Positions 7,950 through 45,183 of a stretch of 64,000 nt of DNA are shown here, piece after piece (the first letter of the stretch is position 1; each line of letters starts with the position of its first letter). Under the pieces are notes generated by a model, which did not search any database, had not been told where the DNA came from, and saw only the letters and a program-made list of their open reading frames with translations. This stretch comes from Agarophyton chilense (taxonomy: Eukaryota; Rhodophyta; Florideophyceae; Gracilariales; Gracilariaceae): assembly GCA_030374765.1 (NCBI GenBank), contig JARGXX010000033.1, positions 372,001-436,000 of the forward strand, read 5' to 3'. Position numbers and translations under genes: made by a program.

Positions 7950-9124
7950 TGTAACGCAATGCGCTACTCGAAAGACCAGCCGCGGGCGGCGAGAGCTACG
8001 CACAGGCAGAGCCTGGAAAGCCGGGGTCGGCTATCTGGCCCTAGAGTCCGCAACGACTCAAGAGAGGCGTCGTCTCACAGGCGAGGAGTGTCGACTAGAC
8101 ACAGACTCCTATCGTTCCACAGGAGCTCTTGGCGTCCGGAAGACGTGCTCGGAGTGGTGTCGATCCGACACGAACCGAAGTGATCGGCCTGGATATACGC
8201 CGCGTATGACGAGTAGCCGGTGCGAGCCCCGGGATTGTACCAGAGCCCGGACGAGCGCCACGACCCTAACGTCGGCAACGACGCACCAACCACTTCCCCC
8301 AACGGGTGGCGATAACAAAGCAGGGCAAGCCCTGAGATTGTACCAGCGCTCAGACGAGAGCGTCTGCTTGGCTATGCCGACTGGCGCCACAAAGTGGTAA
8401 TCAGTCACACCCAACGGGTGACGATAGCAAAGCAGGGCAAGCCCTGGGATTGAACCAGCGCCCAGACGAATGCGCCTGCCTGCCTTTACCAGCTGCACCT
8501 GGAAGTGATACTCACTTATTCGAGGCTCCCGATCCACACCTCGGTATCCAATGGATACGGGTCTACAATCTGCTCGGGCAGTAGAACTGCCAGCGGTCCA
8601 ATAGACCGAGCGAAAGTGCAATGAGCCACGCGGCGACCGATGGCCGTGAGGGCAAGGACTAGACGGGGAATCCTCGATAGGCTAAAACGCGAGCTCTGCA
8701 GCAGTTGATCAGACTGTTGCCTGTCTTGTCGGAGTCGATTGGGAACGAAGGTCTGATAACCCCATTGTCTCAAGACACGAACTAGTAGTTCGGAGGGCCT
8801 CTGGCCTTTCTTTGGACTTTACTTCGGTATAGCCCCCGGCGACCCGGCGCCCAAGTACCGCCGGCCGCTTAGCAGGTAGCCATTACGATAGATTACAACT
8901 AATAAATACAATTAAAAATTACAAGGCAGCAGTGCAGAGCACTGTATGGTGCCAACCACACGAACTAGCTGCCGGCCATTGCCACACGTATGACACCTAG
9001 CGCCATGCACGTTATTTCATCCTGGCAGTATGCCAGCTATTACGGCGTCGTCACTGCTTAGTGTAAGGAGGTCGGAGGAGGATGGCTACTTGTCCTCAAT
9101 AAGAGCCCGGCGCGTTGCGTCACA
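7950..9124 (-). repeat. E1 3' LTR
   Basis: The boundaries come from direct comparison with 17520-18698: identity begins at TGTAACGC and ends at GCGTCACA, after which the sequences diverge. It contains imperfect 112-bp internal repeats. Confidence 0.93.
8298..8520. repeat. Two imperfect 112-bp tandem units inside the E1 LTR
   Basis: AACGGGTG(G/A)CGATA recurs at 8301 and 8413, and the following AAAGCAGGGCAAGCCCTG recurs in phase. The same pair lies in the other LTR at about 17868-18090. On the sense (minus) strand each unit has a hairpin with stem CTGG/CCAG and loop TTCAATC or TACAATC, reminiscent of a tRNA T-arm. Confidence 0.7.
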
Positions 9125-9140
9125 TCACCCCCTTCTCAGC
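9125..9140 (-). other. E1 polypurine tract
   Basis: On the minus strand GCTGAGAAGGGGGTGA directly abuts the TG of the 3' LTR, as expected for the plus-strand priming site. Confidence 0.8.
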
Positions 9141-9228
9141 TTGTAGCGTCTCCGCTACAGCCAAGAGTGATCCCGATCACAAGACAGCACAGCATCGCTG
9201 ATATTGCTTCAACTGTGCCACGCACAGT

Positions 9229-11049
9229 ATGATAAGAACGGATCCCTGGAAGCGCCGCCGCGATGGCCACCGCGAACCGCTCTTCGATCGATCGCTTCAA
9301 TGGGTTCGCTGGGCCTCAGAGACAACCTTGTCTCGTCCTGAAGTCCCAATAGGACTCGGAAAAGTAGCCACATGGCTACGAGATGTCGCAGACATCGAAG
9401 AGTGCTTCCGCTCATACACCTTCAGAGAGATGGCTAGCCATCCTTCATCGGACCTGACCGTGTGGGGTCGCCGTCACTTCTTGCAGCTGCTAATCGAACG
9501 ACGAGCGCGTCTTGCCGCGTTCCGCCGCTTAATTTCCGATGACTTCATCGGCCGGGTAGACAACGAGTTCTACCGACGTCCGGCAGATGAGCCGTACGTA
9601 GCGAGGACGCTACGCGAAAGCTTCCTGAATAGGGTTGAAAGTTGGGCGGACGACCGCCCTCTGGTTCCCAAGCTTTGCTTGCCTTTCCCGTACCTCTACG
9701 AGGATGCTGAGGGGATTCCCTGGCTGACCACCTTCGAGGAAGTCCACAACGGCATGGGTGCCGAGGAGATTGAGCGCATCCTACGGAATCCGAAAATACT
9801 CCGTGTGCTGCCTCCGACGGTCATCCGTGACAACGGAGCCAATTGGGTCCTCGACCCCTGTAGGCGCGATGCGTCAGGCGAATTTGTCGCAAGGGTACTA
9901 CCTCCAATGGACGCTTGGCTCGACCAAATCATGACGTACACGCCACATTCTTGGCGACAATTCGAGCGCATGCGCCGACATAAGTACCAGGTTCTGGTAG
10001 CCTACCACCAAGTCGAGGTCGACTGCTTCCAGAAAGATGTCATCCGCGACATATCATGGCCTTTTCCATCGTGGTGGGAGGAAGTTGAAGTCCCGTACGG
10101 GTTCTTCAACGAAATTCCGCCGGTAGTCGTCTACCGTGGCTCATACTTCACCACGTATCCTGGATACCAAACAGTGCTCCGCACTGAATGGGCCTGCCCG
10201 GTGGCCCGCCATCTCATCTATGAGGCCCGCGCGGGTCGCTTATGGTGGATCCCTCCACCGGTACGCAAGGACATAAGAGATCTTAATCTCACTGGCGTCG
10301 AGCCCGATCTGGCTGATGACGAGCGACGCAACGCCGAAGCGAAGAATCTGGAGACTCTACTCGAATTTATCGACAAGACCTGGTGGTCTTCTCTTCCAAA
10401 AGACGGGGTGTTTCCTGACTTCCCTGCGACGCCACGCGTCCAAATGTGTGGCGCAATGCGCCCTGCCCACAACGATGGAGCAACTCCAGTGCATTGCGGC
10501 TGTGATTGGGTTGTCTTCAACCCAATCCTTTGGACTCTGGACATTCCAGAACAATACCTAGTCATCCATGACCAAGGAGGCAACCTCGTTGTGGAGAATC
10601 CGCGGGCGGACTTCATCGCTCCTCTCTCTGTAGGCCGGGTATCTACCTCGTCGAACTCGACGAAATCGGTACGCCTTGCAGAATGGCGTCGCCAACAACT
10701 AGCGAAGCTAGCCTCCGAACCGAAGGATGTCGACATGGTCGACCAACCGTTGGTTAAACGGCCAAAACTTGGATTGGTGCCCGCACCGCCAAGTGAGCTT
10801 GCAAAAGAGAACTCCGCTGCAGCTCTTCTGGATGCCCTCAAGGCCTACGGGGTGACGAGCCTTGCTCAACTCCAGGCCAGGATGGCCAACAACCCTTCGT
10901 CAACGCCGGGACCCGCTGCAGTAGCCGCACCAACCACTTCGACTACGGGGGCTATCCCTGATATCAGCAGCACTGCCGTGCCTACAGGGCCGTCGACGGC
11001 CCCTGGGGACGAACTCCTAGATAGTGAGGAGGAATTATCTCCAGTGTAG
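9229..11049 (+). CDS. Antisense-encoded conserved retrotransposon protein (606 aa), unknown function
   Basis: The frame is fully open, starting 105 bp inside the E1 3' LTR and convergent with pol, which ends 175 bp beyond its stop. No known domain is recognised. I see no signal peptide or clear membrane helix, so it does not look like an envelope protein. The core is rich in Trp, Tyr, Pro and Arg. Residues about 290-345 contain PPVVVYRGSY, then RTEWACPVARHLIYEAR, then LWWIPPPVRKDIRDL, followed later by DWVVFNP. The same order of blocks occurs in the antisense frames of E2, E4 and E5. The C-terminal 130 residues are low-complexity (Ala/Pro/Thr/Ser-rich) with a basic KRPKL stretch and an acidic end. 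Antisense frames between integrase and 3' LTR are known in plant Tat-lineage elements such as Grande and RIRE2. Regulation of sense expression or a structural role is only a guess. Confidence 0.85.
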   Translation: MIRTDPWKRRRDGHREPLFDRSLQWVRWASETTLSRPEVPIGLGKVATWLRDVADIEECFRSYTFREMASHPSSDLTVWGRRHFLQLLIERRARLAAFRRLISDDFIGRVDNEFYRRPADEPYVARTLRESFLNRVESWADDRPLVPKLCLPFPYLYEDAEGIPWLTTFEEVHNGMGAEEIERILRNPKILRVLPPTVIRDNGANWVLDPCRRDASGEFVARVLPPMDAWLDQIMTYTPHSWRQFERMRRHKYQVLVAYHQVEVDCFQKDVIRDISWPFPSWWEEVEVPYGFFNEIPPVVVYRGSYFTTYPGYQTVLRTEWACPVARHLIYEARAGRLWWIPPPVRKDIRDLNLTGVEPDLADDERRNAEAKNLETLLEFIDKTWWSSLPKDGVFPDFPATPRVQMCGAMRPAHNDGATPVHCGCDWVVFNPILWTLDIPEQYLVIHDQGGNLVVENPRADFIAPLSVGRVSTSSNSTKSVRLAEWRRQQLAKLASEPKDVDMVDQPLVKRPKLGLVPAPPSELAKENSAAALLDALKAYGVTSLAQLQARMANNPSSTPGPAAVAAPTTSTTGAIPDISSTAVPTGPSTAPGDELLDSEEELSPV

Positions 11050-11224
11050 CTGTCCAAACCTTCTTTTCATAAAACAAATGCGTTCCCTTGAACACCTGCT
11101 TGCCTCCTTTGCTCTATCATTCCAGTAGGTTAGCCATCTAGCGAGTGTGTTGGGATTGGTACGGGGTCTGCTCCAGCCGCAATAGCGGGGATCCCGCACA
11201 GGTCCAACAGTTTCAGTGTTTTGT

Positions 11225-12034
11225 TTACACTTGCAAGTTTGCCTCAGCGGGTTCCACTAGGTCATGAGTGGAGCCATGGTTAGCTCGCAGAAGTATCTCA
11301 TCCCGGTCGGGGACGCTGATCTTCCGTCGTCGGCAGTAGCGAGCCACGAGGTTCCACGGCAGGCTATCAGCGGTGTGGAAGGTGTCTTCCTCTGCTGTAT
11401 ATCCGAGCCACCGAACTTTGTACTCGCGTTTCTCCGCCGCTCCCTGGGTATGACCCACTATCTTGTCTATGACGCTTTCGTCATCTCCCGTCACCCCGGG
11501 CGGCTTAGACGCCCCAGTGACCACGTGGTCCAAGTTATGACGCTCCTCGAGTCCATCGTTCTCAATAAGAACCGTGTGGTTTTCCTCGTCACCGCTGATG
11601 ACCTTGTAAGGTCCAACGACCTTTCGACTCAATTTACGGGAGATCTTCTCACCTGGAACCTCTGGCTCCCTAAGGTCTAAGTGCCTCCGCAGGTACACAT
11701 AAGTACCGGGTTCCGGCATTCGCTTCTCAACGACGCGAGCATCGTACTGCTGCTTGTAGCGTTGCTGCGCTTTAGTTAAGGCACCGGTCGTGCGCGACAG
11801 CAGTTGACGCAGCTGTGTCAAAAACTGCATCTTAATCTCGCGAAGAGCCTTCCCTTTTAGGGTTCCGAGTCTCTGTAGAGCCAGCGGCTCTGGGGCGTTA
11901 GCAAGTACCACCTCGAACGGGGAATGGCCCGTGCTAGAATGGACTTGTGTATTGTACCCAAAGGTCAGCGCATCGCTGTAAAGGTCCCAGTTGTGCTGAT
12001 GCTCAGCAACATAATGCCTCAAGGCAGACAACAT
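11225..12034 (-). CDS. pol: E1 pol: integrase C-terminus and chromodomain
   Basis: This continues the integrase frame after a TGA at 12038-12040. It begins MLSALRHYV, the stretch that follows the catalytic Glu helix, and has a GPYKV (GPY/F) module at about residues 145-150. A chromodomain follows (about residues 185-245: SVIDKIVGHTQG, then YKVRWLGYTAEEDTF, then RYCRRRK). Chromodomains direct integrase to modified histones and place E1 among chromoviruses. The usual W-E-P of the chromodomain is replaced by F-H-T, so histone binding may be weakened. Confidence 0.85.
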   Translation of the reverse strand: MLSALRHYVAEHQHNWDLYSDALTFGYNTQVHSSTGHSPFEVVLANAPEPLALQRLGTLKGKALREIKMQFLTQLRQLLSRTTGALTKAQQRYKQQYDARVVEKRMPEPGTYVYLRRHLDLREPEVPGEKISRKLSRKVVGPYKVISGDEENHTVLIENDGLEERHNLDHVVTGASKPPGVTGDDESVIDKIVGHTQGAAEKREYKVRWLGYTAEEDTFHTADSLPWNLVARYCRRRKISVPDRDEILLRANHGSTHDLVEPAEANLQV

Positions 12035-12037
12035 GGT

Positions 12038-12934
12038 TCAGTTGAACCTCTCGACTTGACCGTTGGTCTGCGGATGGTACGTGGACGTGAAGAGGTTCTT
12101 GATGCCAAGGATTTGGCAGGCGATCTGAAAGAACTTCGAGGCGAAGTTAGATCCATTGTCCGACAGGACAGTGACGGGTGGTCCGTAGACAAACACCCAA
12201 TGGGTGCAGAACGCCCTTGCAATTGCGAACGCATCGGTGTTCGACAAAGGGATGGTCTTCGTCAACTTTGTGAAGCGGTCACAGATCCCCAGCAAGTAAC
12301 GATTACCTCTACTCGTAGTCTGAAGTGGCCCCAGGATGTCGATCGCGACACTTTCCAGCGGTGCGGTCGCCGGGAACAGCTTCAATCGGGAGCTTTTTCT
12401 CAGGAGAGAAATCCTCTCCTTCACACACGAGTCACACTCGTTGACCAAACGGTACCCATCGGCGGCCATGCTTGGCCAGTAATAGCGTCGACGCATCGTG
12501 GCGTACATCCTTCGTCCTCCCGGGTGTCTTGCGACACCGGGGTAATGATGCATATGCATCACGCGCTCCCTTAGCGATTTTAGTGTGAGCACCTGCTCGC
12601 TTTGATCTATTCTAGCTTTGCGGACTAGTACTCCATCGTGGTCCGTGTACACACGGAATTTGGGGTCATGGAGAGACCGTTCTCTCATGTCCTCACAGAA
12701 CGAGTCTGTGGCTTGCTCGCCGAGCAATTCTTCTAGCGAAACCGCCGTAAGCTCATGTTCTTCAACGTCGAGGGCGGCATCCCAAGGATGCGAGGCATTG
12801 CAGAACGTGATGCTCGGGCCTGTAGCCTCCGACTCACACACAAAACAGGGTATGTCTTCTGAAGGTCTCATAGCGGTCTCACCATCTGTGGGCATGCGCT
12901 CTAAGTAGGGCCGTAATATGGTCAGCGCCCACAC
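12038..12934 (-). CDS. pol: E1 pol: RNase H end and integrase catalytic core
   Basis: Residues about 90-135 carry the zinc-binding H-H-C-C module (HHYPGVARHPGG, then CDSC). The DDE core is intact: VAIDILG, LSDNGSNF and GQVERFN. The frame then meets TGA where RFNRT is expected, which fits one CGA-to-TGA change. At the N-terminal side the sequence passes from RPYLER directly to MPTDGE. About 58 residues of RNase H present in E2 (from the T-D-H motif to the A-D-A-L-S-R motif) are absent, without a frame change. Confidence 0.9.
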   Translation of the reverse strand: MWALTILRPYLERMPTDGETAMRPSEDIPCFVCESEATGPSITFCNASHPWDAALDVEEHELTAVSLEELLGEQATDSFCEDMRERSLHDPKFRVYTDHDGVLVRKARIDQSEQVLTLKSLRERVMHMHHYPGVARHPGGRRMYATMRRRYYWPSMAADGYRLVNECDSCVKERISLLRKSSRLKLFPATAPLESVAIDILGPLQTTSRGNRYLLGICDRFTKLTKTIPLSNTDAFAIARAFCTHWVFVYGPPVTVLSDNGSNFASKFFQIACQILGIKNLFTSTYHPQTNGQVERFN

Positions 12935-12949
12935 AACTGCGATACATTC

Positions 12950-14131
12950 TCACTCCGTAGTGGAGTATCTCCTCTCGGTGGCGGACAAGGTCCGGCTCCA
13001 ATACCCAACTGGATGATGGATTTCGTTATGAACTTGCGTCAAGACGCAACCAATCTGGCCAGCACTGGCATCGGTCTCCACCGTAAACGGGCGGTCTGCC
13101 CTTGGTAGCTTTAAAACTGGCGCGTGCGTCAGTGCTTGCTTAAGCATTTCGAACGCTTCTAACTGCTCAGCTGTGAGCTGCGGCAATCGAGGTGAAACCC
13201 CTTTCTTCGTAAGCTCCGTCAGCGGTGCAGCAACTTTCGCGAAATTTCGCACAAAACGTCGGTAGACGTTGCACATTCCGAGAAAGGATCGAACTTCAGT
13301 CTGCCTCGCAGGTGGTCGCGCCTTCTGGAGAGCCTCAAGGTTCTTCGTGGCAACTTCCAACAGGCCCGGTTTGATTACGTGGCCAAGGTAATCTACTGAC
13401 CTCCGAAAGAAGTGACACTTCTTCAACTTCAGGGTTAACCCTGCGTTTCTGAGAACAGTGAGTATCTCGTCCACATGTCGTATGTGTTCGTCCGCATTTT
13501 TGGAGAAGATGATGACACCATCAATATACACCAGGCAACATTGCCATTTGAATCCTGCTAGCAGGATATCCACGATTCTCTGGAACGTTGCTGGGGGGTT
13601 GCAAAGCCCAAAGAGCATACGAGTGAACCTATAGGTCCCTGCGTGACACGTGAACGTGGTTTTGTCCTGATCTTGAGGCGCGACGGACAGTTGCCAATAC
13701 CCGCTATTGTAATCTAGCGTGGTAAAGAACTGGGCCTCGCCCAAGCTGTCAAGACACTCTTCTATGCGGGGTAGGGGATAGGTATCTTTCACGGTAAGGG
13801 AGTTGAGGCGCCTATAATCTACGCAGAAGCGTAGGCTTCCGTCGGGTTTCGGAACAAAGACAACTGGGCTTGCCCACTCTGACCTGGCCGGTTCGATGAC
13901 ACCTGCATCAAGCATACGCTTAACTTCGGCGAACTCGTGTTCTCTAATCTTCGGTCCAGCTCGATAAGGCTGCGAGTGAACAGGGGTTGCCCCTGACATC
14001 AACTTGATCCGATGAGGAGGTCCTCGAATCTCTCCAAGCTTACCGCTCCACATGTCTTCATGCTTACCAAGCATCTCTTTCACGGCACGCTGCATCTTTG
14101 GCGAGATCTCCAAGAGATCTATCGAGTCCAA
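12950..14131 (-). CDS. pol: E1 pol: reverse transcriptase and start of RNase H
   Basis: Ty3/gypsy RT. WASPVVFVPKPDGS, then FCVDYRRLN, then TTLDYNSGYWQ (first catalytic Asp), then FGLCNPPATFQR, then the active-site box reads VYIDGVIIF. The second Asp of YxDD is Gly (GAT to GGT), which should abolish polymerase activity. The tether and RNase H begin at about residue 330 (VETDASAGQIG). It ends at a TGA in the E-x-E-C-I-A-V-V-W-A motif and the frame continues unchanged. It is in frame with the protease segment upstream, separated only by TAA 14240-14242. Confidence 0.9.
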   Translation of the reverse strand: MDSIDLLEISPKMQRAVKEMLGKHEDMWSGKLGEIRGPPHRIKLMSGATPVHSQPYRAGPKIREHEFAEVKRMLDAGVIEPARSEWASPVVFVPKPDGSLRFCVDYRRLNSLTVKDTYPLPRIEECLDSLGEAQFFTTLDYNSGYWQLSVAPQDQDKTTFTCHAGTYRFTRMLFGLCNPPATFQRIVDILLAGFKWQCCLVYIDGVIIFSKNADEHIRHVDEILTVLRNAGLTLKLKKCHFFRRSVDYLGHVIKPGLLEVATKNLEALQKARPPARQTEVRSFLGMCNVYRRFVRNFAKVAAPLTELTKKGVSPRLPQLTAEQLEAFEMLKQALTHAPVLKLPRADRPFTVETDASAGQIGCVLTQVHNEIHHPVGYWSRTLSATERRYSTTE

Positions 14132-14239
14132 GAGGCTCGTTGGAGGCTCGGTCGTCTGCGACTCTCTAGTGTCACATGCCGGGTGTGGCCTGAGGTTTCC
14201 GGGTTCCGGTTCCTCGGGTTGTCGATCGTGCAGGATTGC

Positions 14240-15109
14240 TTAGATGTCTGACGGGCGCTGCGGAACAGCACGACCAAGGACTTGTCCTTTACAAAGCGTC
14301 ACTTCGTGACGAGCGAAGTTGGCGACAATAACTCTGAACGGTCTGTTGCTGCGAACGTTCGCGACGCCATTCGCCAGACGAACGCGATATTTGTCGAAGA
14401 GCTTCTCTTCTGGCTGGAGGAAGAAACTTTCTCCATCGGCGCACCTCGCCCAGACGATGGTTTCAGAGCTAGGAGAAAGGGCTATCTTCCGTGCAACGTG
14501 AATATGTCTGCAATGGTAGAAGGGGTCCTTCTTTAGCTTCTTTCCCTCACCCTTCGGTGGCGTGTGACGCCAATCAGATGCCGGTCGTCGGTATATCGAA
14601 ACAGATGAGCAGTTACTCATATATAGGGTCCCTCTTTTAGGGTGGATAGCGTCAACATGCTTATCGATGAAATCACATCCTAGGATCAAGTCTGTACTCA
14701 GACGTTCGGCGACCAGGAATGGCACGCGTGCCAGATAATCCGCGATGCGGACGGTTAGCACGGTGGTGCCGCGTATTTTGAGGGCATGCCCTCCTGCGTC
14801 GTTAAGTCCGAGGGACTTCTGAGCGGGTGCCAATGGGGTTATCCTCAACCCCGGAACTGCATCCTGGTGGATGAGGTTAGGAGCGGCCCCTGTATCCAAT
14901 ACGGATAAAACCTCCATGGCATCGTCTTTGGTAAAGCCCACACGGGCTACAACTTTGTAGTTGAAACGTCCTATTTTGAGGACGGGGTCCTGTTGCGGCG
15001 TAACAACTTCTGCACACTTGTCTAATAGACACTTGGTAACGATTTCGTCACCTTCGTCTCTGATATCCGGAGTCTTAGAAGAAGAGACTTGGGCCTCTAA
15101 GTCCGGGGG
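14240..15109 (-). CDS. pol: E1 pol N-terminus: retropepsin-like protease
   Basis: The aspartic protease motif LDTGAAPNL is followed by the flap-side ILGCDFID (I-L-G-x-D). The frame is -1 relative to gag and overlaps the gag end, since no stop is seen back to about 15109. That implies frameshift or reinitiation. It closes with TAA where the RT linker continues in the same frame. The protease would process the Gag and Gag-Pol polyproteins. Confidence 0.85.
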   Translation of the reverse strand, partial: PPDLEAQVSSSKTPDIRDEGDEIVTKCLLDKCAEVVTPQQDPVLKIGRFNYKVVARVGFTKDDAMEVLSVLDTGAAPNLIHQDAVPGLRITPLAPAQKSLGLNDAGGHALKIRGTTVLTVRIADYLARVPFLVAERLSTDLILGCDFIDKHVDAIHPKRGTLYMSNCSSVSIYRRPASDWRHTPPKGEGKKLKKDPFYHCRHIHVARKIALSPSSETIVWARCADGESFFLQPEEKLFDKYRVRLANGVANVRSNRPFRVIVANFARHEVTLCKGQVLGRAVPQRPSDI

Positions 15110-17415
15110 ACGTTTCCCTCATCTTGGGGCTCAGCGTTGTCCTTGCGACGGACCTGGGGTTGCGCGGACACCGCGCTAGGTCGTAGGGCCTGGTATCCTC
15201 TTCGTGGAGGCGTGAGTCCTGCCACGAAGTAGACCATCGCCGGCATCCTTGCCGCTATCTCTGGAGAGGCCTCCATTATACGCTGTCGAGCCTGCGCTCG
15301 CATGGGCGGAGTGATCCACTCGCAATCAGCGACCACGTGGTCGGGATTGGCGCATAAGTAACAAGCTCCGTAAGCTTCGCGTCGCGGCGCATGCTGGCTC
15401 CGCCGGAGCCTTCGATCAACCCATCCAACGCGCTTGGGCTGCGCCCACTCCTCCATACGGGTGTTATAGTTTGACACTACCAGAAGCGCGGGGTCACTTT
15501 GTCCCAACGGGTGAGATTGCGGAAGGGTTTCCGCCTCTGTTGTGCTACAACTGTAGCTTGGGTCCGTAGGTGGACCCTCTACATCGGTGCCGATATGCAG
15601 TATGGCGTCGTCGCCAAGATTACGGCCTGTTAGAGCCGTATCGGTGGAAAGGGTCGTACCCTCCAGTGACATCACCGGTGCCTTAGCCTGATACGGCTTA
15701 ACATTCAACGGATGCCTGAGCGGTTGCGTCAGCCGTGACGTATGTCCATGAGACATAGCCAATTCAACCACAGCGTCCAAGGTCGTAAATCGATCGCGGT
15801 GGAGCTGGCGGTCTCGTGTCACACACGAAGCGACGCTGGGCAAGAGCCCTTCGATAAAGGAAGCAATTTGCTCTTCCTGTGAATAAACCCCACCAAGTCT
15901 CGAGAACTTCAGGCGGACACGCTGTGCGAAAGACTGCTCAGTCTCACCAGCCCTCTGGCGTAGTAATCGGAGATCACGTACTAGATCCTGGATATACTCA
16001 TCCTTCGCGTAGCTGCGTAGCAGCCATTGGATAGCCTCTGGCCATGACTTGATTCCCGTGGAGGAATCGTCAATCGCGTCCACGTGCAAAGCACTGTCGT
16101 ACGCTATACGGGCATTGCCCGTCAGGAAGTACGGGAGTACTAACTTTGCCATACCTTCGGAGATGCCGTTGTTATTGGCCTCGCGTTTGAACGCGGCTGA
16201 AAAGTTCAGGACTGACATAGGATCTGCTCCGTCGAACCGACGGTTCGCCATGGTGGTATTGAACCGCTTGACCATAGAAGCGACACGTCGCTTAACTTTC
16301 GAGCTCTCGCTTGTTTCTCGATTATCTAACCGATATGTCTTGTACGACAAGACTTTCTTGAAGCGGCTATTAGCAGGGTTAATCTCTGCAAGATTGTGCT
16401 TCCGCAAGTCCGCACCGGACTCTGAGCTCGAGGATGATATATCATCCGTGGACGAAGATTCCGAACCGGATTTGCGCTTCACCTTAGGGCGTTTGCGCTC
16501 CTGCTTGGCTCTGGAAGCCCTGGGCTTGTGTGAGGGAACCTCACCTTCTGATGGAGAAGTACCATGCTTCATAAGGAATTCTACATGGCCTTGCTGGGCA
16601 GCTCGTTGGAACTCTAGGTCCTCGACCTTCTTGTCCAGGTTGACAATTCGAGTCTCTAGGCCCTGGAGCTCCTGTCCATTAGAAGTGACACCTCCTCGTT
16701 GTGTGGCATGCAACACCTGGCGGGGGTTCTCGACCGCAAGAAAAGATTGAAGGCGTTGTTGCAGCGCAGCTTGCACTTCACCTACAACCTTTACAGTTAG
16801 TTCGGCGAGTCGAGCTTCGAGGGATTCCCTCCAACTCCGCTCAGCCTCGTTAACCTGCTGGGTCACGAGCCTGGGCACGAGGTCTACGACCTCGGCAACG
16901 ACGAGCTGTCGGACTTGCACCGGTACTACGTCCATTGGAGGTCTTGGGGATGGAGTTTCATCCACGTTGATAGGAATTCCTCCCGTGGGTGGGGCATGAA
17001 GACCTTTTTCAGGGGGAAACACTTTACTGGGACGAACGGTATCAGTCTTCGTAGACTGTTTGGCTGGGGGGTCCAGCCTCGGTAAGGGAAGGGGAGTGAA
17101 CTCCACCCTAGGCGAGGTAGCAAGAGCTACCGATGGTGTGTTCACTAGCACACTAGGACCTGCAGGTCCGGAGGAAGAAGGTTCTTCCACGACTGGGGAG
17201 GGTGAGGAGGCTGCATCTCTCGCAGTCGCTGACTGCACCTCCCCGGGCGTCGGGCCATGGGCTAACTGGGCAACTCGGAAAAGTGTCGAGCGTTTGCTTC
17301 CGCTGAGTGCTGAGGCGTCGTTCTTTATAGAACTAGCCTCTCGACCACTGACCGAAACGGACTGATTGTCGTTCGAAGTCGAACGCCTGAAGAAAGCACC
17401 TGATCGGGTGCTCAT
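15097..17415 (-). CDS. gag: E1 gag polyprotein (772 aa)
   Basis: It starts at ATG 17413-17415, about 80 bp after the PBS. The N-terminal third is Pro/Ser-rich, then a predicted coiled coil (about residues 190-280) and an acidic/basic low-complexity stretch. A capsid-like region follows (about 340-560; SWPEAIQWLLRSYA, GETEQSFAQRVR), and one CCHC zinc knuckle CYLCANPDHVVADC lies near residue 690. The long disordered N-terminus makes it larger than most gypsy gags. It is intact in this copy, so E1 may still supply Gag although its Pol is dead. Confidence 0.88.
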   Translation of the reverse strand: MSTRSGAFFRRSTSNDNQSVSVSGREASSIKNDASALSGSKRSTLFRVAQLAHGPTPGEVQSATARDAASSPSPVVEEPSSSGPAGPSVLVNTPSVALATSPRVEFTPLPLPRLDPPAKQSTKTDTVRPSKVFPPEKGLHAPPTGGIPINVDETPSPRPPMDVVPVQVRQLVVAEVVDLVPRLVTQQVNEAERSWRESLEARLAELTVKVVGEVQAALQQRLQSFLAVENPRQVLHATQRGGVTSNGQELQGLETRIVNLDKKVEDLEFQRAAQQGHVEFLMKHGTSPSEGEVPSHKPRASRAKQERKRPKVKRKSGSESSSTDDISSSSSESGADLRKHNLAEINPANSRFKKVLSYKTYRLDNRETSESSKVKRRVASMVKRFNTTMANRRFDGADPMSVLNFSAAFKREANNNGISEGMAKLVLPYFLTGNARIAYDSALHVDAIDDSSTGIKSWPEAIQWLLRSYAKDEYIQDLVRDLRLLRQRAGETEQSFAQRVRLKFSRLGGVYSQEEQIASFIEGLLPSVASCVTRDRQLHRDRFTTLDAVVELAMSHGHTSRLTQPLRHPLNVKPYQAKAPVMSLEGTTLSTDTALTGRNLGDDAILHIGTDVEGPPTDPSYSCSTTEAETLPQSHPLGQSDPALLVVSNYNTRMEEWAQPKRVGWVDRRLRRSQHAPRREAYGACYLCANPDHVVADCEWITPPMRAQARQRIMEASPEIAARMPAMVYFVAGLTPPRRGYQALRPSAVSAQPQVRRKDNAEPQDEGNVPRT

Positions 17416-17496
17416 GACTGGGTCCGGGTGACGACTTGGGCAAAAAGACGAGTATCTCCTTGAATTTGAAGAAGTGAGACTGCGTAGTCTCTTGTG

Positions 17497-17515
17497 TTTC
17501 TAAGTCGGGAGACCA
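17497..17515 (-). other. E1 primer-binding site
   Basis: On the minus strand TGGTCTCCCGACTTAGAAA begins four bases inside the 5' LTR. The same motif follows the 5' LTRs of E2, E4 and E5. It would pair with a tRNA ending CGGGAGACCA, as some eukaryotic tRNA-Tyr do; the tRNA identity is not proven. Confidence 0.8.
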
Positions 17516-17519
17516 GAAA

Positions 17520-18698
17520 TGTAACGCAATGCGCTACTCGAAAGACCAGCCGCGGGCAGCGAGAGCTACGCACAGGCAGAGCCTGGAAAGCCGGGGTCGG
17601 CTATCTGGCCCTAGAGTCCGCAACGACTCAAGAGAGGCGTCGTCTCACAGGCGAGGAGTGTCGACTAGACACAGACTCCTATCGTTCCACAGGAGCTCTT
17701 GGCGTCCGGAAGACGTGCTCGGAGTGGTGTCGATCCGACACGAACCGAAGTGATCGGCCTGGATATACGCCGCGTATGACGAGTAGCCGGGGCGAGCCCC
17801 GGGATTGTACCAGAGCCCGGACGAGCGCCACGACCCTAACGTCGGCAACGACGCACCAACCACTTCCCCCAACGGGTGGCGATAACAAAGCAGGGCAAGC
17901 CCTGAGATTGTACCAGCGCTCAGACGAGAGCGTCTGCTTGGCTATGCCGACTGGCGCCACAAAGTGGTAATCACTCACACCCAACGGGTGACGATAGCAA
18001 AGCAGGGCAAGCCCTGGGATTGAACCAGCGCCCAGACGAATGCGCCTGCCTGGCCTTGCCAGATACACCTGGAAGTGATACTCACTTATCCGAGGCTCCC
18101 GATCCACCCCTCGGTAACCAACGGATACGGGCCTACAATCTGCTCGGGCAGTAGAACTGCCAGCGGTCCAATAGACCGAGCGAAAGTGCAATGCGCCACG
18201 CGGCGACCGATGGCCGTGAGGGCAAGGACTGGACGGGGAATTCTCGATAGGCTAAAACGCGAGAGATACCTCTGCAGCAGTTGATCAGACTGCTGCCTGT
18301 CTTGTCGGCGTCGACTGGGAACGAAGGTCTGATAACCCTATAGTCTCAAGACACGAACTAGTAGTTCGGAGGCGTCTCTCGCCTCTTGGACTTTACTTCG
18401 GTCTAGCCCCCGGCGACCCGGCGCTCAAGTACCGCCGGCCGCTTAGCAGTTAGCCATTACGATATATTACAACTAATAAATACAATTAAAAATTACAAGG
18501 CAGCAGTGCAGAGCACTGTATGGTGCCAACCACACGAAGTAGCTGCCGGCCATTGCCACACGTATGACACCTAGCGCCATGCACGGTATTCCATCCTGGC
18601 GGTATGCCAGCTATTACGGCGTCGTCACTGCTTAGTGTAAGGAGGTCGGAGGAGGGTGGCTACTTGTCCTCAATAAGGGCCCGGCGCGTTGCGTCACA
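17520..18698 (-). repeat. E1 5' LTR
   Basis: The partner of 7950-9124; a few short indels explain the 4-bp length difference. It holds the same tandem 112-bp units. The sense promoter should lie here, but I could not pick a TATA box with confidence. Confidence 0.93.
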
Positions 18699-20172: not shown

Positions 20173-20461
20173 TGAAGTGCAACCCTTGTGAGGGCCGTTT
20201 TCCAGGACTTGGTTGTTTTTCCGCCTCGGGCGATACTTGTGAGATCTATCAGTAGTACCGCTACTAGCGGGTTGGCGTAGCCAGGTGTATACGCGTTGTA
20301 CGCGAAGTGCACCGGCGGCCGTGCGCCGTGGCCCCGATTCGGGTGTGACTTACCCACGTGTACCACGGGTGGCCCAGGACAGGTTGGCACAGCATAGCTG
20401 GATATTTCTCTATTTATTTAGCTTTATTACACTAGGTTAGGGAGCTCTCTACAGTATTCTA

Positions 20462-20492
20462 CACTATATAGTGCCAGGGCGACCTCGCCCTG
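20462..20492 (+). promoter_or_regulatory. E2 LTR TATA palindrome and adjacent hairpin
   Basis: CACTATATAGTG (20462-20473) is a perfect 12-bp palindrome and a plausible TATA element. It is followed at once by CAGGGCGA/TCGCCCTG, an 8-bp hairpin with a 2-base loop. The same pair is at 31584-31614 in the 3' LTR. A diverged LTR relic at 42975-43350 keeps the hairpin with different paired bases. Confidence 0.5.
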
Positions 20493-20510
20493 ACACTCAG
20501 TAAACCTCCC

Positions 20511-20800
20511 CAACCAGGGTTCTTGGCTCTAAATCTTTTTCCGCTTTCGCGAGTCTTCCACACTCTACGGAGGTGAAGCCGCGTTACTAACGGTAGACTT
20601 ATCCACCCTGCGTCAACAGGAGACTCACCGCCGTTAGCGTGTATATCTTTCATACCAACCAGGGTTCTTGGCTCTAAGTCTTTTTCCGCTTTCGCGAGTC
20701 TTCCACACTCTACGGAGGTGAAGCCGCGTTACTAACGGTAGACTTATCCACCCTGCGTCAACAGGAGACTCACCGCTGTCAGCGTGTATATCTTTCATAC
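20511..20800 (+). repeat. 145-bp tandem duplication in E2 5' LTR
   Basis: CAACCAGGGTTCTTGGCTCT starts at 20511 and again at 20656, and the following 145 bases repeat with few changes. The 3' LTR has the same duplication (31633 and 31778), so it predates this insertion. Confidence 0.9.
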
Positions 20801-21114
20801 CACTGCCGTGTTCTCGCCCCAGTATTGGGTTTGCTACATATTTCTTTTGGCTCTCGTGGCCCATGCCCCCGATCGCCCCCACTGGGTGGTCCCTTCTTTA
20901 TCACTCGCCCACTCCCGTGGAATACAGCTCATACCTGGTCTGCTCCCTTCTAGCATCCCGCACTCTCCCCGCTTGGCGTGCCGGTGAACTTCGGCCTTAC
21001 ACCCCGACTTAGTCGTGTTCGCTCCGGAGAAGCTCCGTCGCCGTGCTACCCTCCTTGGAGGAAGACTCGGACATCTTCGTGTGTTTCCGCTGCCCTTGGT
21101 GTTGCACTACAAAC

Positions 21115-21134
21115 TGGTCTCCCGACTTAGAAGG
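21115..21134 (+). other. E2 primer-binding site
   Basis: TGGTCTCCCGACTTAGAAGG, three bases after the 5' LTR; the same priming motif as E1, E4 and E5. Confidence 0.8.
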
Positions 21135-21271
21135 CTAAGCGGACCTGGTTTGGTTGTTTTTCACATTGCTGTGCTTTCTTCTCTCGTCGAGATCTGCTTT
21201 CCAATTTCTTGGTTTGGACACACTTGGTGGAAGCTTTTGTTGTCCTATTCTTAGTGGTCAACGCTACAACC

Positions 21272-23400
21272 ATGTCACGACTACCGACGGAAGCGGAACC
21301 CGCGATCACGCGGAGCCGTTCCGTCAATGACGTGGCGCCTGCGGACCCTGGAAGGGTTCCCCGCCGTTACCTCAAGCCGCTCCGAAAGGCAAGAGTAAGG
21401 GGTCGAACTCCTCCAAGAACAACAAGCTACCGCCTAATGCGTCGAAGAATGGACCCAATTCTGGTGCTGGACCGGCCCCTGCCGTGGATGACCCGGCTCC
21501 TGCCGACGAAAAGGCCCAGGAAAACGAGTTCCACATCGACATAAACTCAAGTGTGAGGCAGCAGATCCGCGTAATGCGGGAAGCGCACAATGCCTTCGTG
21601 GAAGAGTTCGAAGCCCTGCGTTCCAGGTGTGATGGCTCTTCTATGAAGGAAGTGGTTGGCGACCTCCACGTGTTGCGGGCGGACGTCAACACCCTGTTGG
21701 AATGTTTTGGTTGTCCCGCCGCTTACGTGGAAGGTGTCGAGACCCGATTCAATCGTGTTAGCGCCCGTTTCCAGACGTTAGAGCAAACCATCTTGATGGA
21801 AGACGTCCCGGAGAAGCCGGTTGCTGTGTCGCACCAAGTGAAACACGAGAGGAAAAAGGACGATACCCGCAGTCGGCGTGGAAAGCGTGACAGCGATGAC
21901 TCGGACTCGTCGAACTCCTCACGGTCGTCGCGTGGCTCTCACCATTCAAATGGGTCGGACTCGTCAGATTCGTCTTCTGACGATGGCCATCGCAGGCGTT
22001 CATCCCGTTCTAAACGGTCGTCTGCCACCCAAGGTGTGATCCGCGCCCGCGAGAAGGGAAGGAAACACTCCGGGTTGAATGAGCTGAAATGCACCAACCC
22101 CCTAAACAAGAAGTTGGTTTCTTACCGATACTATCGGCTAGAGAACTCCTCTTTGGATCGCACGCCCCGTGGCACGGGTAGAGTGAAGGATTGCATAAAT
22201 CGTATGCAACTGTCCCTCAGGAACCAGAACTTTTCTGGAGAAGACCCCATTTTGGTATTGGATTTCCTTGCGAGGTTCTTCGCCGAAGCGGATATTCTCG
22301 GTATGACCGAAGGACAGGCGTTTATTGCACTCCCGTACTTTATGAAAGGCCTCGCCGAGGATCAATACAACTCTGTAAGAGGTTCGTCTAGAGCCTCCGA
22401 AGGAGGGGTAACCTGCTGGCCAGAAGCAGTACAATACCTCTTGAGGTCCTACGCCACTAATCACGCGATTCAGTCGACCATTCTCGCTCTTCGCGATACG
22501 CGCCAGAAGTCTGGAGAAACGGAAACCGAATTCTCGGTGCGCCTGAACAAGGCTTTCCACCGTAGTGGGAACGTACACTCCGCCGGAGAGCGCTGCACCA
22601 TGTTCATCGATGGACTGAACCCCGCTATCCGAACGCTCGTTGCCCGTTACCGGGAAGACCGAAGGAAGACCACGTATCTGGGGTTGGTCCAACACGCGCA
22701 AGCGGAAGGTGACGCTTTAAGAGCTCGTGCTCCCGGACACAGGTCGCGAACCGCCAAGGCGTTGGTGATGGAAACGAAGTCGCCATCCCTATCGCTGATT
22801 GCGAGTGAGCGCCCCAAACAGGAATACGACAACGTACACTTCGCCCGAAGCGATATCCATTCGGTCCCGACAACCGAACTACCGTCTACGACGGACGACT
22901 CATATGACACGGCCCAGGATGGACCCCTGCTGTACGCAGACTCTCCCCGTGTTCACGGACCTCGCATCCCGTATTCAAACGGTGCGCTCCGACAGAGTCG
23001 CCCTGGATGGAAGGATACCCGCCAAGCGGTGAAGTTCACGGATGCTCGCTCCGGTTTGCAGCCCTCACGCCAGGGACTCATATGCCACATATGCTACGAA
23101 CACGGTCACATTTCACCGGACTGTATCCTCACCATGAGGGAAGTAGCCCGTGTAATCGGTAATTATGAGGCGTTGACCCCAGTGGAAAAGTGGATTGTTC
23201 CGATGACGTCGTATCTTCGAGCGAAGATCGATTTTCCACGGAGTATTCCGGAGGCGAAACCGCGCAATGCGTTGCTTTACCCTGCCGAGCAGGCTCCCGA
23301 CCACCGCCCCGTTCCTTCAAACCCCGCCGCTGGCGCCCCATTGCTAGTGGTTCAGGATTCTGAGGCCCCGCCCCAGGCGGATGGGAATCAGGAAGACTGA
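21272..23400 (+). CDS. gag: E2 gag polyprotein (frameshifted near N-terminus)
   Basis: The likely start is ATG 21272 (ACAACCATGTC). The frame shifts near 21358, in a C run, into the main 638-codon frame, as expected from loss of one base. The protein has a coiled-coil region, a long Ser/Asp and Arg/Ser-rich tract, a capsid-like region (GVTCWPEAVQYLLRSYA, GETETEFSVRLNKAF) and one CCHC knuckle CHICYEHGHISPDC. It is clearly homologous to E5 gag and more distantly to E1 gag. Pol follows in the -1 frame, overlapping the gag end. Confidence 0.85.
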
Positions 23401-23438
23401 CTTCGGGAGTCTCCTCTTCGGGAGAGGCGTCCCCAACA

Positions 23439-23894
23439 GTGAGGTTGACGATGCCCGAGGCGTCTCCGCCTCGCTCCCCGGTCACAATCCTCACGAGGAA
23501 ACAGGCCGTCTCAGACGTGGACTCTGAACACTTTGGTGTTCCACGTCGACCGTGGAAACGTGTTCTTAACCGCCGGTTCCCGGATAGAGTCTTAGTAATG
23601 GGCAAGCGCAATTACAAGGTGTATGCCTACCTTGGCCTTTCTACCCAGTTTATGGTTCGAGTCTTTACTGTTTTGGACACAGGTGCTGGTCCGAATTTCA
23701 TCGTGGAGTCGCTGCTGCCCCCGCCCTTGCGGTCTCAGATCCGCCTTGGCGTGGCGCCCGACGTTGCGGACGCGAATAACAACATTGTCAACGGTGGGAA
23801 CCGTCGCTCTCGTCGTTCGCTTGGGCTCCTTCGTGGTGAAACTCGACTTTATTGTATGCCGGAAATTGGCTGCCCCCATCATCTTGGGATGTGA
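23439..23894 (+). CDS. pol: E2 pol N-terminus: protease active site
   Basis: Contains VLDTGAGPNF, the retropepsin active site. The frame is -1 to gag and open back into the gag end. About 100 bases after the motif it leaves the productive frame. A one-base insertion near 23795 shifts pol into the next frame, where VVKLDFIVCRKLAAP and IILGCDFC continue the protease. Confidence 0.8.
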   Translation: MRLTMPEASPPRSPVTILTRKQAVSDVDSEHFGVPRRPWKRVLNRRFPDRVLVMGKRNYKVYAYLGLSTQFMVRVFTVLDTGAGPNFIVESLLPPPLRSQIRLGVAPDVADANNNIVNGGNRRSRRSLGLLRGETRLYCMPEIGCPHHLGM

Positions 23895-26800
23895 CTTCTG
23901 TGAAAGATTCGTTGACGTCATAAGGCCCCGCTTAAAGCGTGTTGAGATGGAAGACGGCTCGTCGCTCCCGATTGTCCGTCGTCCGCTGCGGCGTGCCTCC
24001 AAGAAGCACGTACCGCTCCCTGCCGCGCAGGAACCTCCACCCGCTTCTCGGGAGTCTACCAAGCTCCGCGTGGCTGCGTCTGTTCGAATCCGTCCAGAGT
24101 CCCAAGTATGGGTGCGTGTCACTTCCCGTCAACACGGTTTACGAGTCATTCAGCCTCTCTCATCTCTGTACGATGGATATCATCTCGCCGTGGCGAATGG
24201 AGTCGTGCAGATTGTCCCAGACAAGCCATTCACCGTGCTCGTTGCCAATCTGGGCTCCACCCCCCAGTCACTGGTGAAAAACCAACTTATTGGATCGGTA
24301 ATGCCTCACCCCACCGCGATGGTCCCCACTAGGCTGACCGCTGCCGAAGTCCTCGGTCTCGTTCACTCTAAGGAGGGGGAGGAACCTGCCGTCCAATCAC
24401 CGAATGATTCGGAATCGCAACCTGCCGAAACAGAAAAGAAGCCCATTCCGACGAGTTACGACCGGGTAGACCCCGTGAAAGAACTCGAGGAGCTCGACCT
24501 CGGTCATGTACCGGAGTCAAACCGTGAAAGTCTGCGTGAGATGTTACGGGAGTTTACCACAATGTGGGATGGCTCTCTTGGTGAGATAAATACAACGGAA
24601 CACCGGATAGATTTATTGCCGAACACCCGACCGGTGGCTCAACACCCTTACAGGGCAGGCCCCAAGGCTCGAGAAGAGGAACAGTTCCAAGTGGACAAAA
24701 TGCTCCGAGCTGGAGTGATCGAACCGGCTCAGTCGCCGTGGGCATCCCCAGTGGTACTGGCTCCGAAACCCGATGGTTCCTGGCGCTTTTGCATCGACTA
24801 CCGTCGCTTGAATGATGTTACCGTCAAGGACGTGTATCCAATCCCACGAATGGATGAGTACATCGACTCTCTCGGCACTGCTACCATGTTCACGGCTTTG
24901 GACGCCAATTGGAAATATTGGCAGGTTCCCGTTAGGGAGGAGGACCAAGATAAGACTGCGTTTGTCTGTCACTCGGGACTCTACCGTTTTAAACGGATGC
25001 CTTTTGGTCTAACCAATGCTCCCGCTACCTTTCAGCGTGCTATCGACTTTTTGTTGGCCCGCTTTAAGTGGCGTACTTGCCTCGTCTATTTGGACGATAT
25101 CATTGTATTCTCAGACAATCTGGATGACCATCTCACCCAAGTCAGGGACATAATGACCACGCTACGTGACGCTGGAATAACCCTCAAACTGAGGAAATGT
25201 GAGTTCTTTACCGATACTGTGAAGTATCTCGGGCACATTATCCGTCCTGGACGTGTAATGATCGAGGAAGCTCGAGTGAGGTCCCTTCGCAAGGCGAAAG
25301 AACCCGCTACCCAGACGGAACTGCGCTCCTTTCTAGGATTGGTCAACGTCTACCGACGGTTTATCCCTAACTTCGCTGACATCGCGGCCCCCTTGAACGC
25401 GCTTCTGCGGAAAGGTCAACCACCTAAACTGGACCCATTTACGTCCGCCCAGACGGATGCTTTTAACTCCCTTAGGGAGGCTGTCACATCAGCACCGATT
25501 CTATCGTTACCGAAACCCAGACTACTGTTTTCCGTGGACACAGACTCTAGCGACTACCAGGTAGGCTGTGCGCTCTTTCAAACTACTCCCGAAGGAGAAC
25601 GCAAACCCATTGGGTACTGGTCCCGCTCGCTCAATTTCCACGAGCGGAACTACTCCGTGTCGGAGAAGGAGTGCCTCGCAGTTGTGTGGGCCCTCTCTAC
25701 ACTCCGCCCCTACCTCATGGGTGTGCACTTTACCGTTTACACGGATCACTCGTCCCTACGATGGCTCATGACCATCTCGGAGCCGTCAGGCCGCTTAATG
25801 CGTTGGAGACTCCGCCTCGCGGAATATGACTTTGAAGTGATCTACAAGAAGGGCACTCAGAACGCGCAAGCGGACGCGCTCTCGCGTTTACCCACGAATG
25901 GAGAAGCTCTAGCCGTCGATGACGAGGATATACCTTGCTTCGTCGTAGACGATGGAACACCGGGAAACCCGGATTGGTTACACGATAAATGGAACGAAAG
26001 CCCGGAATCGGACGATGATATTGACGCATTGCTCGTCTCGGACGATTCAGAGAAACCCCCGCCGGGTAATTTTGTGCCGATACCCCCGGAGGAGATGGTC
26101 AGAGAACAGCAGGGTGACCCCTTCTGTACGAAGATTTGCGCCTGGTTTAATGGCGGTGCACAACTCCCTTTCGAGGTGAACGATCTTGGATACCTCGTTA
26201 GGACGGTTCAGTCACCCCCACAAGTCGTGGTGCCGCATACTCTACAGTCTAGAGTTTTGCATCAATCGAACTATGCGAAACTTGGTGGAAACGCCGGTGG
26301 ACGGAAGCTCTACCTCACTTTGCGAAGGAACTTCTGCTGGCCCGCCCTGGCGGTGGATTGCTACGCAACGGTGCGGTTTTGTACCGAATATGCTAAGAAT
26401 CGGGTTAAACTTCGCAAGTACTCAACGAAGTTGAAACTATTCCCGGCACGGGCTCCTCTCGAGTTGGTCGCCATTGACATCCTCGGCGAGCTTCTCACCA
26501 CACGACGTGGGCATAAGTTTTTACTCGTTATCACGGATCGTTTCTCAAAACTGGTTCGGACCGTACCTTTACGGAAGATATCCGCTTTCACGGTTGCACA
26601 AGCACTTGTAACCCATTTGGTATTCGTCTACGGCCCGCCGGTTAATCTTCTATCCGATAACGGAAAACAGTTCGCATCGCAATTCTTCGAGGACGTGTGC
26701 AGGATTCTTGACATCAAGAACCTGTTCACAACGACCTATCACCCCCAGTGTAATGGGCCAGTGGAGCTGTTTAACCGAACGCTATTATCGTCTCTCCGTT

Positions 26801-27147
26801 CTTACGTTGCCGACGACCCAAAGACATGGGATTTATATACCGACGCCTTGACGTTCGCGTACAATACGCAGGTACACCGTACTACGGGCTTGACTCCATT
26901 CGAACTGGTCTTGTCCCGCCCTCCGCCCGCTCTCGCGTTAGAACCCCAGCCCACGCTGGATGCGTTCCCTTCCGTGAAGGATTATCGCCACAGGTGGAAA
27001 GAGTGGCTTACGAAGCTGATCCCGGTCGCCCGAAGCTCGATGGCTCGTGCCCAAGCCGCTTACAAGCGTGATTTCGACTCTCGCGTACGCGGTAAGGCCC
27101 CGCCAATCAAAGCCGGTGACTTCGTCTTCGTCCGTAAGGAGTACTGA
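23797..27147 (+). CDS. pol: E2 pol: protease end, reverse transcriptase, RNase H, integrase
   Basis: The open frame formally extends back to 23623, but its first 55 codons are out of the productive frame. Domain order: protease I-L-G-C-D-F; RT with WASPVVLAPKPDGS, TALDANWKYWQ and VYLDDIIVF (all catalytic Asp present); RNase H with VDTDSS, SEKECLAVVWALS, YTDHSSLRW and QADALSRLP (complete); integrase core with VAIDILG, LSDNGKQF and GPVELFN. The integrase zinc module is damaged: the second His is replaced (GGNAGG where E1 has ARHPGG) and the C-x-x-C reads CTEY. It ends at TGA 27145-27147, where CGA would continue the same frame into the GPY module. Confidence 0.9.
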   Translation, partial: GTVALVVRLGSFVVKLDFIVCRKLAAPIILGCDFCERFVDVIRPRLKRVEMEDGSSLPIVRRPLRRASKKHVPLPAAQEPPPASRESTKLRVAASVRIRPESQVWVRVTSRQHGLRVIQPLSSLYDGYHLAVANGVVQIVPDKPFTVLVANLGSTPQSLVKNQLIGSVMPHPTAMVPTRLTAAEVLGLVHSKEGEEPAVQSPNDSESQPAETEKKPIPTSYDRVDPVKELEELDLGHVPESNRESLREMLREFTTMWDGSLGEINTTEHRIDLLPNTRPVAQHPYRAGPKAREEEQFQVDKMLRAGVIEPAQSPWASPVVLAPKPDGSWRFCIDYRRLNDVTVKDVYPIPRMDEYIDSLGTATMFTALDANWKYWQVPVREEDQDKTAFVCHSGLYRFKRMPFGLTNAPATFQRAIDFLLARFKWRTCLVYLDDIIVFSDNLDDHLTQVRDIMTTLRDAGITLKLRKCEFFTDTVKYLGHIIRPGRVMIEEARVRSLRKAKEPATQTELRSFLGLVNVYRRFIPNFADIAAPLNALLRKGQPPKLDPFTSAQTDAFNSLREAVTSAPILSLPKPRLLFSVDTDSSDYQVGCALFQTTPEGERKPIGYWSRSLNFHERNYSVSEKECLAVVWALSTLRPYLMGVHFTVYTDHSSLRWLMTISEPSGRLMRWRLRLAEYDFEVIYKKGTQNAQADALSRLPTNGEALAVDDEDIPCFVVDDGTPGNPDWLHDKWNESPESDDDIDALLVSDDSEKPPPGNFVPIPPEEMVREQQGDPFCTKICAWFNGGAQLPFEVNDLGYLVRTVQSPPQVVVPHTLQSRVLHQSNYAKLGGNAGGRKLYLTLRRNFCWPALAVDCYATVRFCTEYAKNRVKLRKYSTKLKLFPARAPLELVAIDILGELLTTRRGHKFLLVITDRFSKLVRTVPLRKISAFTVAQALVTHLVFVYGPPVNLLSDNGKQFASQFFEDVCRILDIKNLFTTTYHPQCNGPVELFNRTLLSSLRSYVADDPKTWDLYTDALTFAYNTQVHRTTGLTPFELVLSRPPPALALEPQPTLDAFPSVKDYRHRWKEWLTKLIPVARSSMARAQAAYKRDFDSRVRGKAPPIKAGDFVFVRKEY

Positions 27148-29142: not shown

Positions 29143-29444
29143 CACCCACCTCGGTGGAAGAGAAAAGAGAAGTAGGTTTGCTTGAGAACAGGCTAGTGAA
29201 GGAAGGTTTTGGGTTACACAAGTCACTTGGTTTTTATTCGAAGCTATCGATGGAATACCGAGCACTCGGGATACTACTCTAAGTCACAAGGGAAAACTCC
29301 CCATCGGGATCGCGTGCCCCGTCACGGGTTCGGCTCACCGCCCTCTGGTTGGTTACCTCCGTGGAGGCCGGTGATCAAGGCCTCGCGCATCGCGGCAACA
29401 TCGCCACTCGCTGCGTTGGTCCCGAGCCCCACCTGTCGCAGGAA

Positions 29445-31021: not shown

Positions 31022-31277
31022 TCATCGGTGAGCGAAGAGGCCGGATGACCGGAAGAAAAGACCGGCGAAGCGGGAGACGATGCCGAGGAATCGGAGGACT
31101 GGCACGCAAGGTTGCGGATTCGGTTGAGATGGAACGTTGAGAACGGTTGTTGCCAGGAGACTGGAGTTTTGCCGCACTGCGTTTGTTGGCATCGGATGAA
31201 ATGGATCCCAGCGAGCTGGTTGCACTCTTATGCATTCGTCTCGGCGCGTTTCCCACCATCGCAGATGTCGTACTCGC

Positions 31278-31293
31278 GCCTCAGGAGGGGGAT
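31278..31293 (+). other. E2 polypurine tract
   Basis: CAGGAGGGGGATA-type purine run directly before the 3' LTR. The same core AGGAGGGGGATA abuts the E5 3' LTR, linking E2 and E5 as one family. Confidence 0.8.
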
Positions 31294-33440: not shown

Positions 33441-33445
33441 ATTAG

Positions 33446-39093: not shown

Positions 39094-39137
39094 ATTTCCA
39101 GGTCGCCGCGGCGTGGCAACCTTTGAGGTTGGGGTAG

Positions 39138-44574: not shown

Positions 44575-45183
44575 TGTCGTACAATCACCTCTGGGGTATG
44601 CTACTGTCATGTCTCGGAAGCGTTTTGACGCTCGACCTTACAAGGTAGACGTAGTAAAACTCGATGGTAACAGGACATCGTGAAAACCCGCAGGGGTTAA
44701 GTGCGAGGCGACTAGCCTATGCCGTGTAGGTAAACGATGGTAGAAGTCGATGCGCGGGAAAGCCTGCGTGGTATTTGAGAAGCAATAAACCATAATGTAT
44801 GGTCGTGACCTAAGTGATGCCTGCCTTTATCATATAAGGTTTAGGGAGGTGCAGTTCCCTATATGCAGTGGACTGCACTCTCCAGATCATCCGAGAGGTG
44901 CCAGCAAGGCACGGTCTCTGACCTAGTGTCAGAGACCTTGCCAGCACTGGCTACAGTGCCAGGTGGCCACTCAACTACTGTAATAAAATACGCATCATTA
45001 CAATTACTATCACTAAGAATTACTCAACCAGAAGATACATATGAACAATACACGTGGCTGACAACACCTAGATTGTAGCCCGCCCGGAGCTATGTGGCCG
45101 ATGATTCCTCGCACCCATCACCTACAAGGTCAGCGCAGTGTATTGGACACCTTAAAGTTCAACCCTTCTGCCACTAAAGGACA
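44575..45183 (-). repeat. E4 3' LTR
   Basis: Begins TGTCGTACAATCACC and ends AGGACA, aligned with 61841-62474. The right copy carries about 25 extra bases near 61885. Confidence 0.85.

Follow-up and report, generated by a model that had tools for sequence, protein, structure and literature searches.

A 64,000-nucleotide stretch of the genome of the red alga Agarophyton chilense (assembly GCA_030374765.1, contig JARGXX010000033.1, positions 372,001 to 436,000; hereafter the window) holds five elements bounded by long terminal repeats (LTRs), mapped by self-comparison of the window and termed E1 to E5. E1 is a Ty3/gypsy retrotransposon; the region separating its pol from its 3' LTR holds a frame of 606 codons on the strand opposite to that of gag-pol. 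This frame is probably a genuine accessory protein gene of a Ty3/gypsy lineage, held under purifying selection whilst its carriers were multiplying. We favour a gene because its product shares a homologous core with frames in other families, because it is the sole open frame of its region, because its substitutions are of the coding type, and because constraint is visible in changes shared between copies and not in those private to one.

An open frame opposite gag-pol

The frame begins with an ATG and is free of stops, its coordinates agreeing with the sequence-only reading that had first picked it out as fully open. The frame and pol converge tail to tail across a gap of 175 nucleotides (nt), and 104 nt separate the ATG of the former from the edge of the 3' LTR. 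In 500 dinucleotide shuffles, the six reading frames of positions 9125-11224 offered a longest open stretch of 155 codons on average and of 342 at most, so that a frame of 606 codons exceeds what chance would supply. The carriers of such frames show the hallmarks of Ty3/gypsy elements: LTRs, the order protease, reverse transcriptase (RT), RNase H, integrase, and a Ty3-like RT. Ty3 Gag-Pol is the best solved-structure relative of the E2 pol (E=1.8e-106), and the chromodomain of E1 (PF00385) falls below threshold (E=8.4e-5; 22.9 bits against a cut-off of 25.1).

It had also been claimed that the frame stays intact where the RT is dead. This held in part: the E1 pol frame does carry in-frame stops, but its RT domain piece is complete. 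As the near-identity of its LTRs (Table 1) marks E1 as young, the survival of the frame beside a broken pol says little, and was rejected as evidence by itself.

One protein core in three element families

A search of the window with the E1 protein (tblastn) recovered relatives in E4 (E=7e-17) and E2 (9e-15), with a match to E5 at 0.27, and it is the profile that ties in E5. Single hhalign comparisons without a shuffled control, between profiles of 7, 16 and 3 rows, joined E1 with the E2/E4 type at E=1.5e-13, E2/E4 with E5 at 1.1e-8, and E1 with E5 at 2.2e-6. A single core unites the three families: PPV..Y.GS, then EW, then a PP..R motif. The relatives proposed for E2, E4 and E5 are thus borne out, as is their placement between pol and the 3' LTR in the window; all three of these window frames are, however, broken (Table 1).

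The RTs of the carriers are 57% (E1-E2), 50-52% (E1-E5) and 49-66% (E2-E5) identical, and their identity to the RT of E3, which lacks the gene, is 35-46%. As far as such pairwise identities can tell, this fits a single gain of the antisense gene in an ancestor of the three families.

The protein itself would apparently constitute a new family. No significant Pfam match was obtained for E1, members of A1, L046, L062 or L063 (locus handles of the genome search), hence neither TRP28 (PF04195) nor bZIP, and NCBIfam and PHROGs returned sub-threshold matches or none. Amongst solved structures (PDB) the best values were E=1.5 for E1 and 0.068 for the A1 profile, with no match for L046. Relatives of the E1 or E4 antisense protein were not found in viral contigs, and searches of the open-licence literature turned up no description of the gene from red algae. 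AlphaFold models built with six window rows had mean predicted local distance difference test (pLDDT) scores of 38.6 and 34.5, too poor for use. The proteins have a nearly balanced charge, 13-21 tryptophans and many prolines.

Such isolation raises the alternative that the ancestor of the lineage captured a host gene, which still does its host-derived job for the element. The lack of similarity to known retroelement proteins and the opposite orientation would both suit capture, which the available excerpts on the plant cases also discuss. Nevertheless, the presence of the gene in three families with RTs only 49-66% identical would make any capture old, and no host copy was recognised amongst the best candidates, the surroundings of most matches being unread. 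We regard this origin as unlikely.

Copies across the genome

The searched genome was that of the window itself (79,762,974 bases in 135 contigs); copy counts are lower bounds and the loci sampled are the best-scoring matches. Searching with the E1 protein produced 72 scored rows, 42 of which, at 34 places including E1 itself, are E1-type (84-100% identity). The remaining 30 match at 34-39% identity inside residues 236-412, in frames open for as many as 689 codons. In eight of the 30 E1-type loci fetched, the matching portion is free of in-frame stops; six of those eight cover all 606 residues. With the E4 protein, the best 121 of 1862 candidates were scored and several frames reached 639-667 codons; with a piece of E5, the best 124 of 713 were scored and frames extended to 876 codons, three E5-type stretches being still open where the fetched DNA ended, after at least 838, 835 and 870 codons.

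The arrangement recurs with the copies. The end of integrase lies on the strand opposite the antisense frame at all 30 E1-type loci, and pol lies on the opposite strand in three of four E4-type downstream stretches; the fourth, beyond L032, holds another family's gag and protease, which share the strand of the antisense frame. Known antisense additional open reading frames (ORFs) of this class, termed aORF-3R, are recognised by this placement and by many copies in related families, and both were found here.

In passing, the gag and protease of that other family near L032 (L067, C75:165000-168200) have 34-49% identity to E2. Some E1-type frames are evenly spaced (L004-L008, L010, L013, L022 and L025): five on contig C5 and two on C78 are 9,734 bases apart, and two on C7 are 9,745 apart, which looks like head-to-tail arrays of elements with common LTRs.

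Selection on the antisense protein

Constraint was assessed with the ratio of non-synonymous to synonymous substitution rates (dN/dS), in the antisense frame and in the other five. Between E2 and the E4-type copy L046, the antisense frame gave a dN/dS of 0.30 (dS 1.6), with divergences of 0.374, 0.342 and 0.605 at the three codon positions; the other five frames gave 1.18, 1.52, 1.30, 0.465 and 1.46. In 100-codon windows between families, dN/dS was 0.17-0.33 across codons 100-550 where dS was measurable (windows one and two and the stretch 400-500 were saturated), climbing to 0.44-0.91 near the C-terminus.

Within families, changes private to one copy were taken to have arisen mostly after insertion, and changes shared by at least two copies mostly during spread. 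In the E4-type test (29 of 30 loci, a near-duplicate having been removed), private changes comprised 262 synonymous, 637 non-synonymous and 32 stops (dN/dS 0.96), and shared changes 114 synonymous, 165 non-synonymous and a single stop (dN/dS 0.57). The two classes differ by Fisher test in their non-synonymous to synonymous ratio (p 3e-4) and in stops (p 0.003), against p 0.07-0.94 for the former in control frames; the shared dN/dS of the other five frames was 1.14, 1.00, 1.12, 0.71 and 0.94. For E1-type copies (24 of 30 loci), the other five frames had shared values of 0.86-1.79, and two pol pieces beside the E1-type frames gave 0.73 and 0.81 for private and 0.55 and 0.38 for shared changes. 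In three E5-type pairs of copies chosen as intact, the corresponding ratio of proportions (pN/pS) was 0.54-0.57, with 0.66-0.72 in the mirror frame and 0.73-1.20 elsewhere.

It is these patterns that bear on whether the antisense RNA matters and not the protein, with transcription regulating the element, for instance via double-stranded RNA, and the frame being incidental. The excerpted literature considers possible roles of this sort for antisense transcription in other elements (PMC7264820), but both dN/dS and the divergence by codon position pick out the protein frame, and stops are nearly missing from shared changes (one, against 32 private), which renders this alternative improbable. A second alternative, that what the conserved blocks reflect is a function of the sense strand, be it a gene or an RNA structure, could draw on the mirror frame having the next lowest dN/dS (0.465 for E2-L046; 0.71 for E4-type shared changes). 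It is very improbable on the evidence of reading frames: in the seven sequences tested, sense frames each carry 7-35 stops, the mirror frame 7-21, and none is open; moreover, the same by-product appears in pol, whose mirror frame gives 0.19-0.24 beside 0.07-0.105 for pol itself. The low mirror values are best seen as a by-product of wobble positions that coincide with those of the antisense frame. The other two frames of the antisense strand carry 11-28 stops in these sequences, leaving the antisense gene frame alone open.

It is worth noting however, that several observations weigh against a constrained gene. E1-type copies by themselves give no significant difference (private 0.85, shared 0.61, p 0.18), and the E1 LTR control, with shared values of 0.68-1.12, has one frame as low as 0.68. 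Two short pieces of the E5 window frame (0.72 and 1.06) did no better than controls (0.42-1.52), and sampling of the best-scoring loci only over-represents intact copies. The mirror frame of E2 against L046 is itself lowish, as given above, and pol is the more constrained in E2 against the copies behind L065 and L068, from which the pol values come. Finally, inspection of the upstream sequence identified neither a promoter nor a polyadenylation signal.

On balance, we conclude from these substitution patterns that the antisense protein is under purifying selection, weaker than that on pol and evident chiefly in E2/L046 and E4-type copies. The sequence-only reading had proposed a conserved antisense protein family whose blocks do not simply reflect a sense gene: profiles, dN/dS (with its minimum in the antisense frame both for E2/L046 and for the E4-type copies) and closed sense frames all speak for it.

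Expression and possible function

The antisense ATG of E2, like that of the E4-type copy L043, is 35 nt from the LTR, just beyond a polypurine stretch. Given this distance, and that of 104 nt in E1, antisense transcription would begin in the LTR or a few bases after it, and the antisense messenger RNA (mRNA) may accordingly be pictured as starting in the 3' LTR or at its edge. The LTR would then serve gag-pol in one direction and the antisense gene in the other, as with the antisense genes of complex retroviruses. A regulatory accessory protein could be made from such a separate antisense mRNA, as the excerpted accounts propose for the plant cases (PMC7264820, PMC11963269). We tentatively suggest that the product is a regulatory protein, aiding expression of the element or shielding it from silencing, as opposed to a structural or enzymatic one.

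Other elements in the window

Positions of all features are collected in Table 1.

Table 1. Positions of the LTR elements of the window, their genes and their antisense frames.
Feature	Position	Strand	Remarks
E1 element	7950..18698		from window self-comparison
E1 3' LTR (relative to gag-pol)	7950..9124	-	from window self-comparison
E1 antisense ORF	9229..11049	+	606 codons, ATG start, stop-free, opposite gag-pol
E1 antisense conserved core	9934..10527	+	residues 236-433; hhalign match to E2/E4 type (E=1.5e-13)
E1 pol frame	11225..15118	-	protease, RT, RNase H, integrase, sub-threshold chromodomain; in-frame stops 12038, 12950, 14240
E1 gag	15097..17415	-	Retrotrans_gag 3.3e-6
E1 5' LTR	17520..18698	-	96.4% identity with E1 3' LTR
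E2 element	20173..32233	+	LTRs 20173-21111, 31295-32233 (97.7%); gag 21484-23400; pol 23623-27147
E2 antisense frame	29445..31259	-	in-frame stops 30138-30140, 29445-29447; ATG 35 nt from LTR
E3 element	33443..40216		LTR identity 98.9%
E4 element	48831..55553	-	LTRs 48831-49720, 54664-55553 (93.4%); gag and protease part of pol
E4 antisense frame	50266..51258	+	330 codons; first ~45 residues out of frame against full-length copies
E5 element	44616..62474	-	LTR matches 44616-45183, 61907-62474 (88.2%); interrupted by E4
E5 antisense frame	45966..48224	+	three pieces split by stops; relation by profile

E3 is filled by gag-pol and has no antisense frame of at least 120 codons, and a domain search with PF00385 gave no chromodomain match in E2. 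E4, nested inside E5, retains gag and, of pol, the protease portion; no RT was found in it. The idea that a pol-less lineage had been sustained with an intact antisense gene was rejected, the E4 frame being shifted; of 30 loci, only L031 shows a short protease-only pol beside an antisense frame, and at the remaining ones flanks of 1500 bases do not reach far enough for a judgement.

Past its stop at 27145-27147, the E2 pol frame continues for 487 more codons (27148-28611, + strand) rich in serine, proline and arginine, of which L065 and L068 match the first 88-109 residues only. Both E2 LTRs contain a 145-base tandem duplication (20510-20802 and 31632-31924). An identical 18-base stretch directly follows the 5' LTR in E1, E2 and E4 (about 17500, 21115 and 54655) and is likely a transfer RNA (tRNA) primer-binding site, absent from E5 where looked at. 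Elsewhere in the genome there are 13 phycobilisome-linker matches, three of which, on contig C39, recur 185,684 bases on; given the usual size of plastid genomes, this could reflect a circular plastid sequence whose assembly went round more than one time. The linker matches point to a red-algal host and away from an oomycete, for which a search for elicitins gave 0 matches, its controls too remaining blank; the 5.8S rRNA does not look fungal.

Comparison with known systems

Additional ORFs that lie antisense to gag-pol, after pol and before the 3' LTR, are described, in the excerpts available, for maize Grande (gene23), rice RIRE2 and Silene Retand, as published frames of unknown function (PMC7264820, PMC11963269), and excerpts likewise present brtn of the fungal element Boty of Botrytis cinerea as an antisense accessory gene of the same kind. 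The kind is thus already known, and the algal gene joins it. The likeness to Grande, RIRE2 and Retand, as excerpted, lies in an extra antisense gene at the same site, with many copies and related families. Retand, however, has TRP28, whereas the algal protein has neither this nor any other Pfam domain; Retand is given there as a non-chromovirus, whereas the carrier E1 has a sub-threshold chromodomain; and the hosts are plant and alga respectively. That the algal gene is a case separate from the plant genes, as first proposed, draws its support from the lack of a Pfam domain, and hence of TRP28. With brtn the likeness is one of kind by excerpted description. HBZ of human T-lymphotropic virus (HTLV) and other retroviral antisense genes are expressed from the side of the 3' LTR according to the same excerpts (PMC7264820, PMC11963269); here the likeness is in layout only. 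Pfam gave no bZIP match for the algal protein, whose LTR-driven expression is conjectural. A retroviral env-like gene lies in sense orientation after pol, whereas the algal gene is antisense, and so does not belong with that class.

What the algal case contributes is frame-resolved evolution, in which the antisense protein itself is seen to be the object of selection. Three families in one genome offer material for comparison, and the core provides a new handle for searching further algal genomes. It is possible, albeit far from assured, that this undescribed family is a standing third gene of a red-algal Ty3/gypsy lineage, already present in the ancestor of the three families, served by a bidirectional LTR and separate in origin from TRP28 and brtn. 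If so, antisense accessory regulators would be a recurring invention of retroelements.
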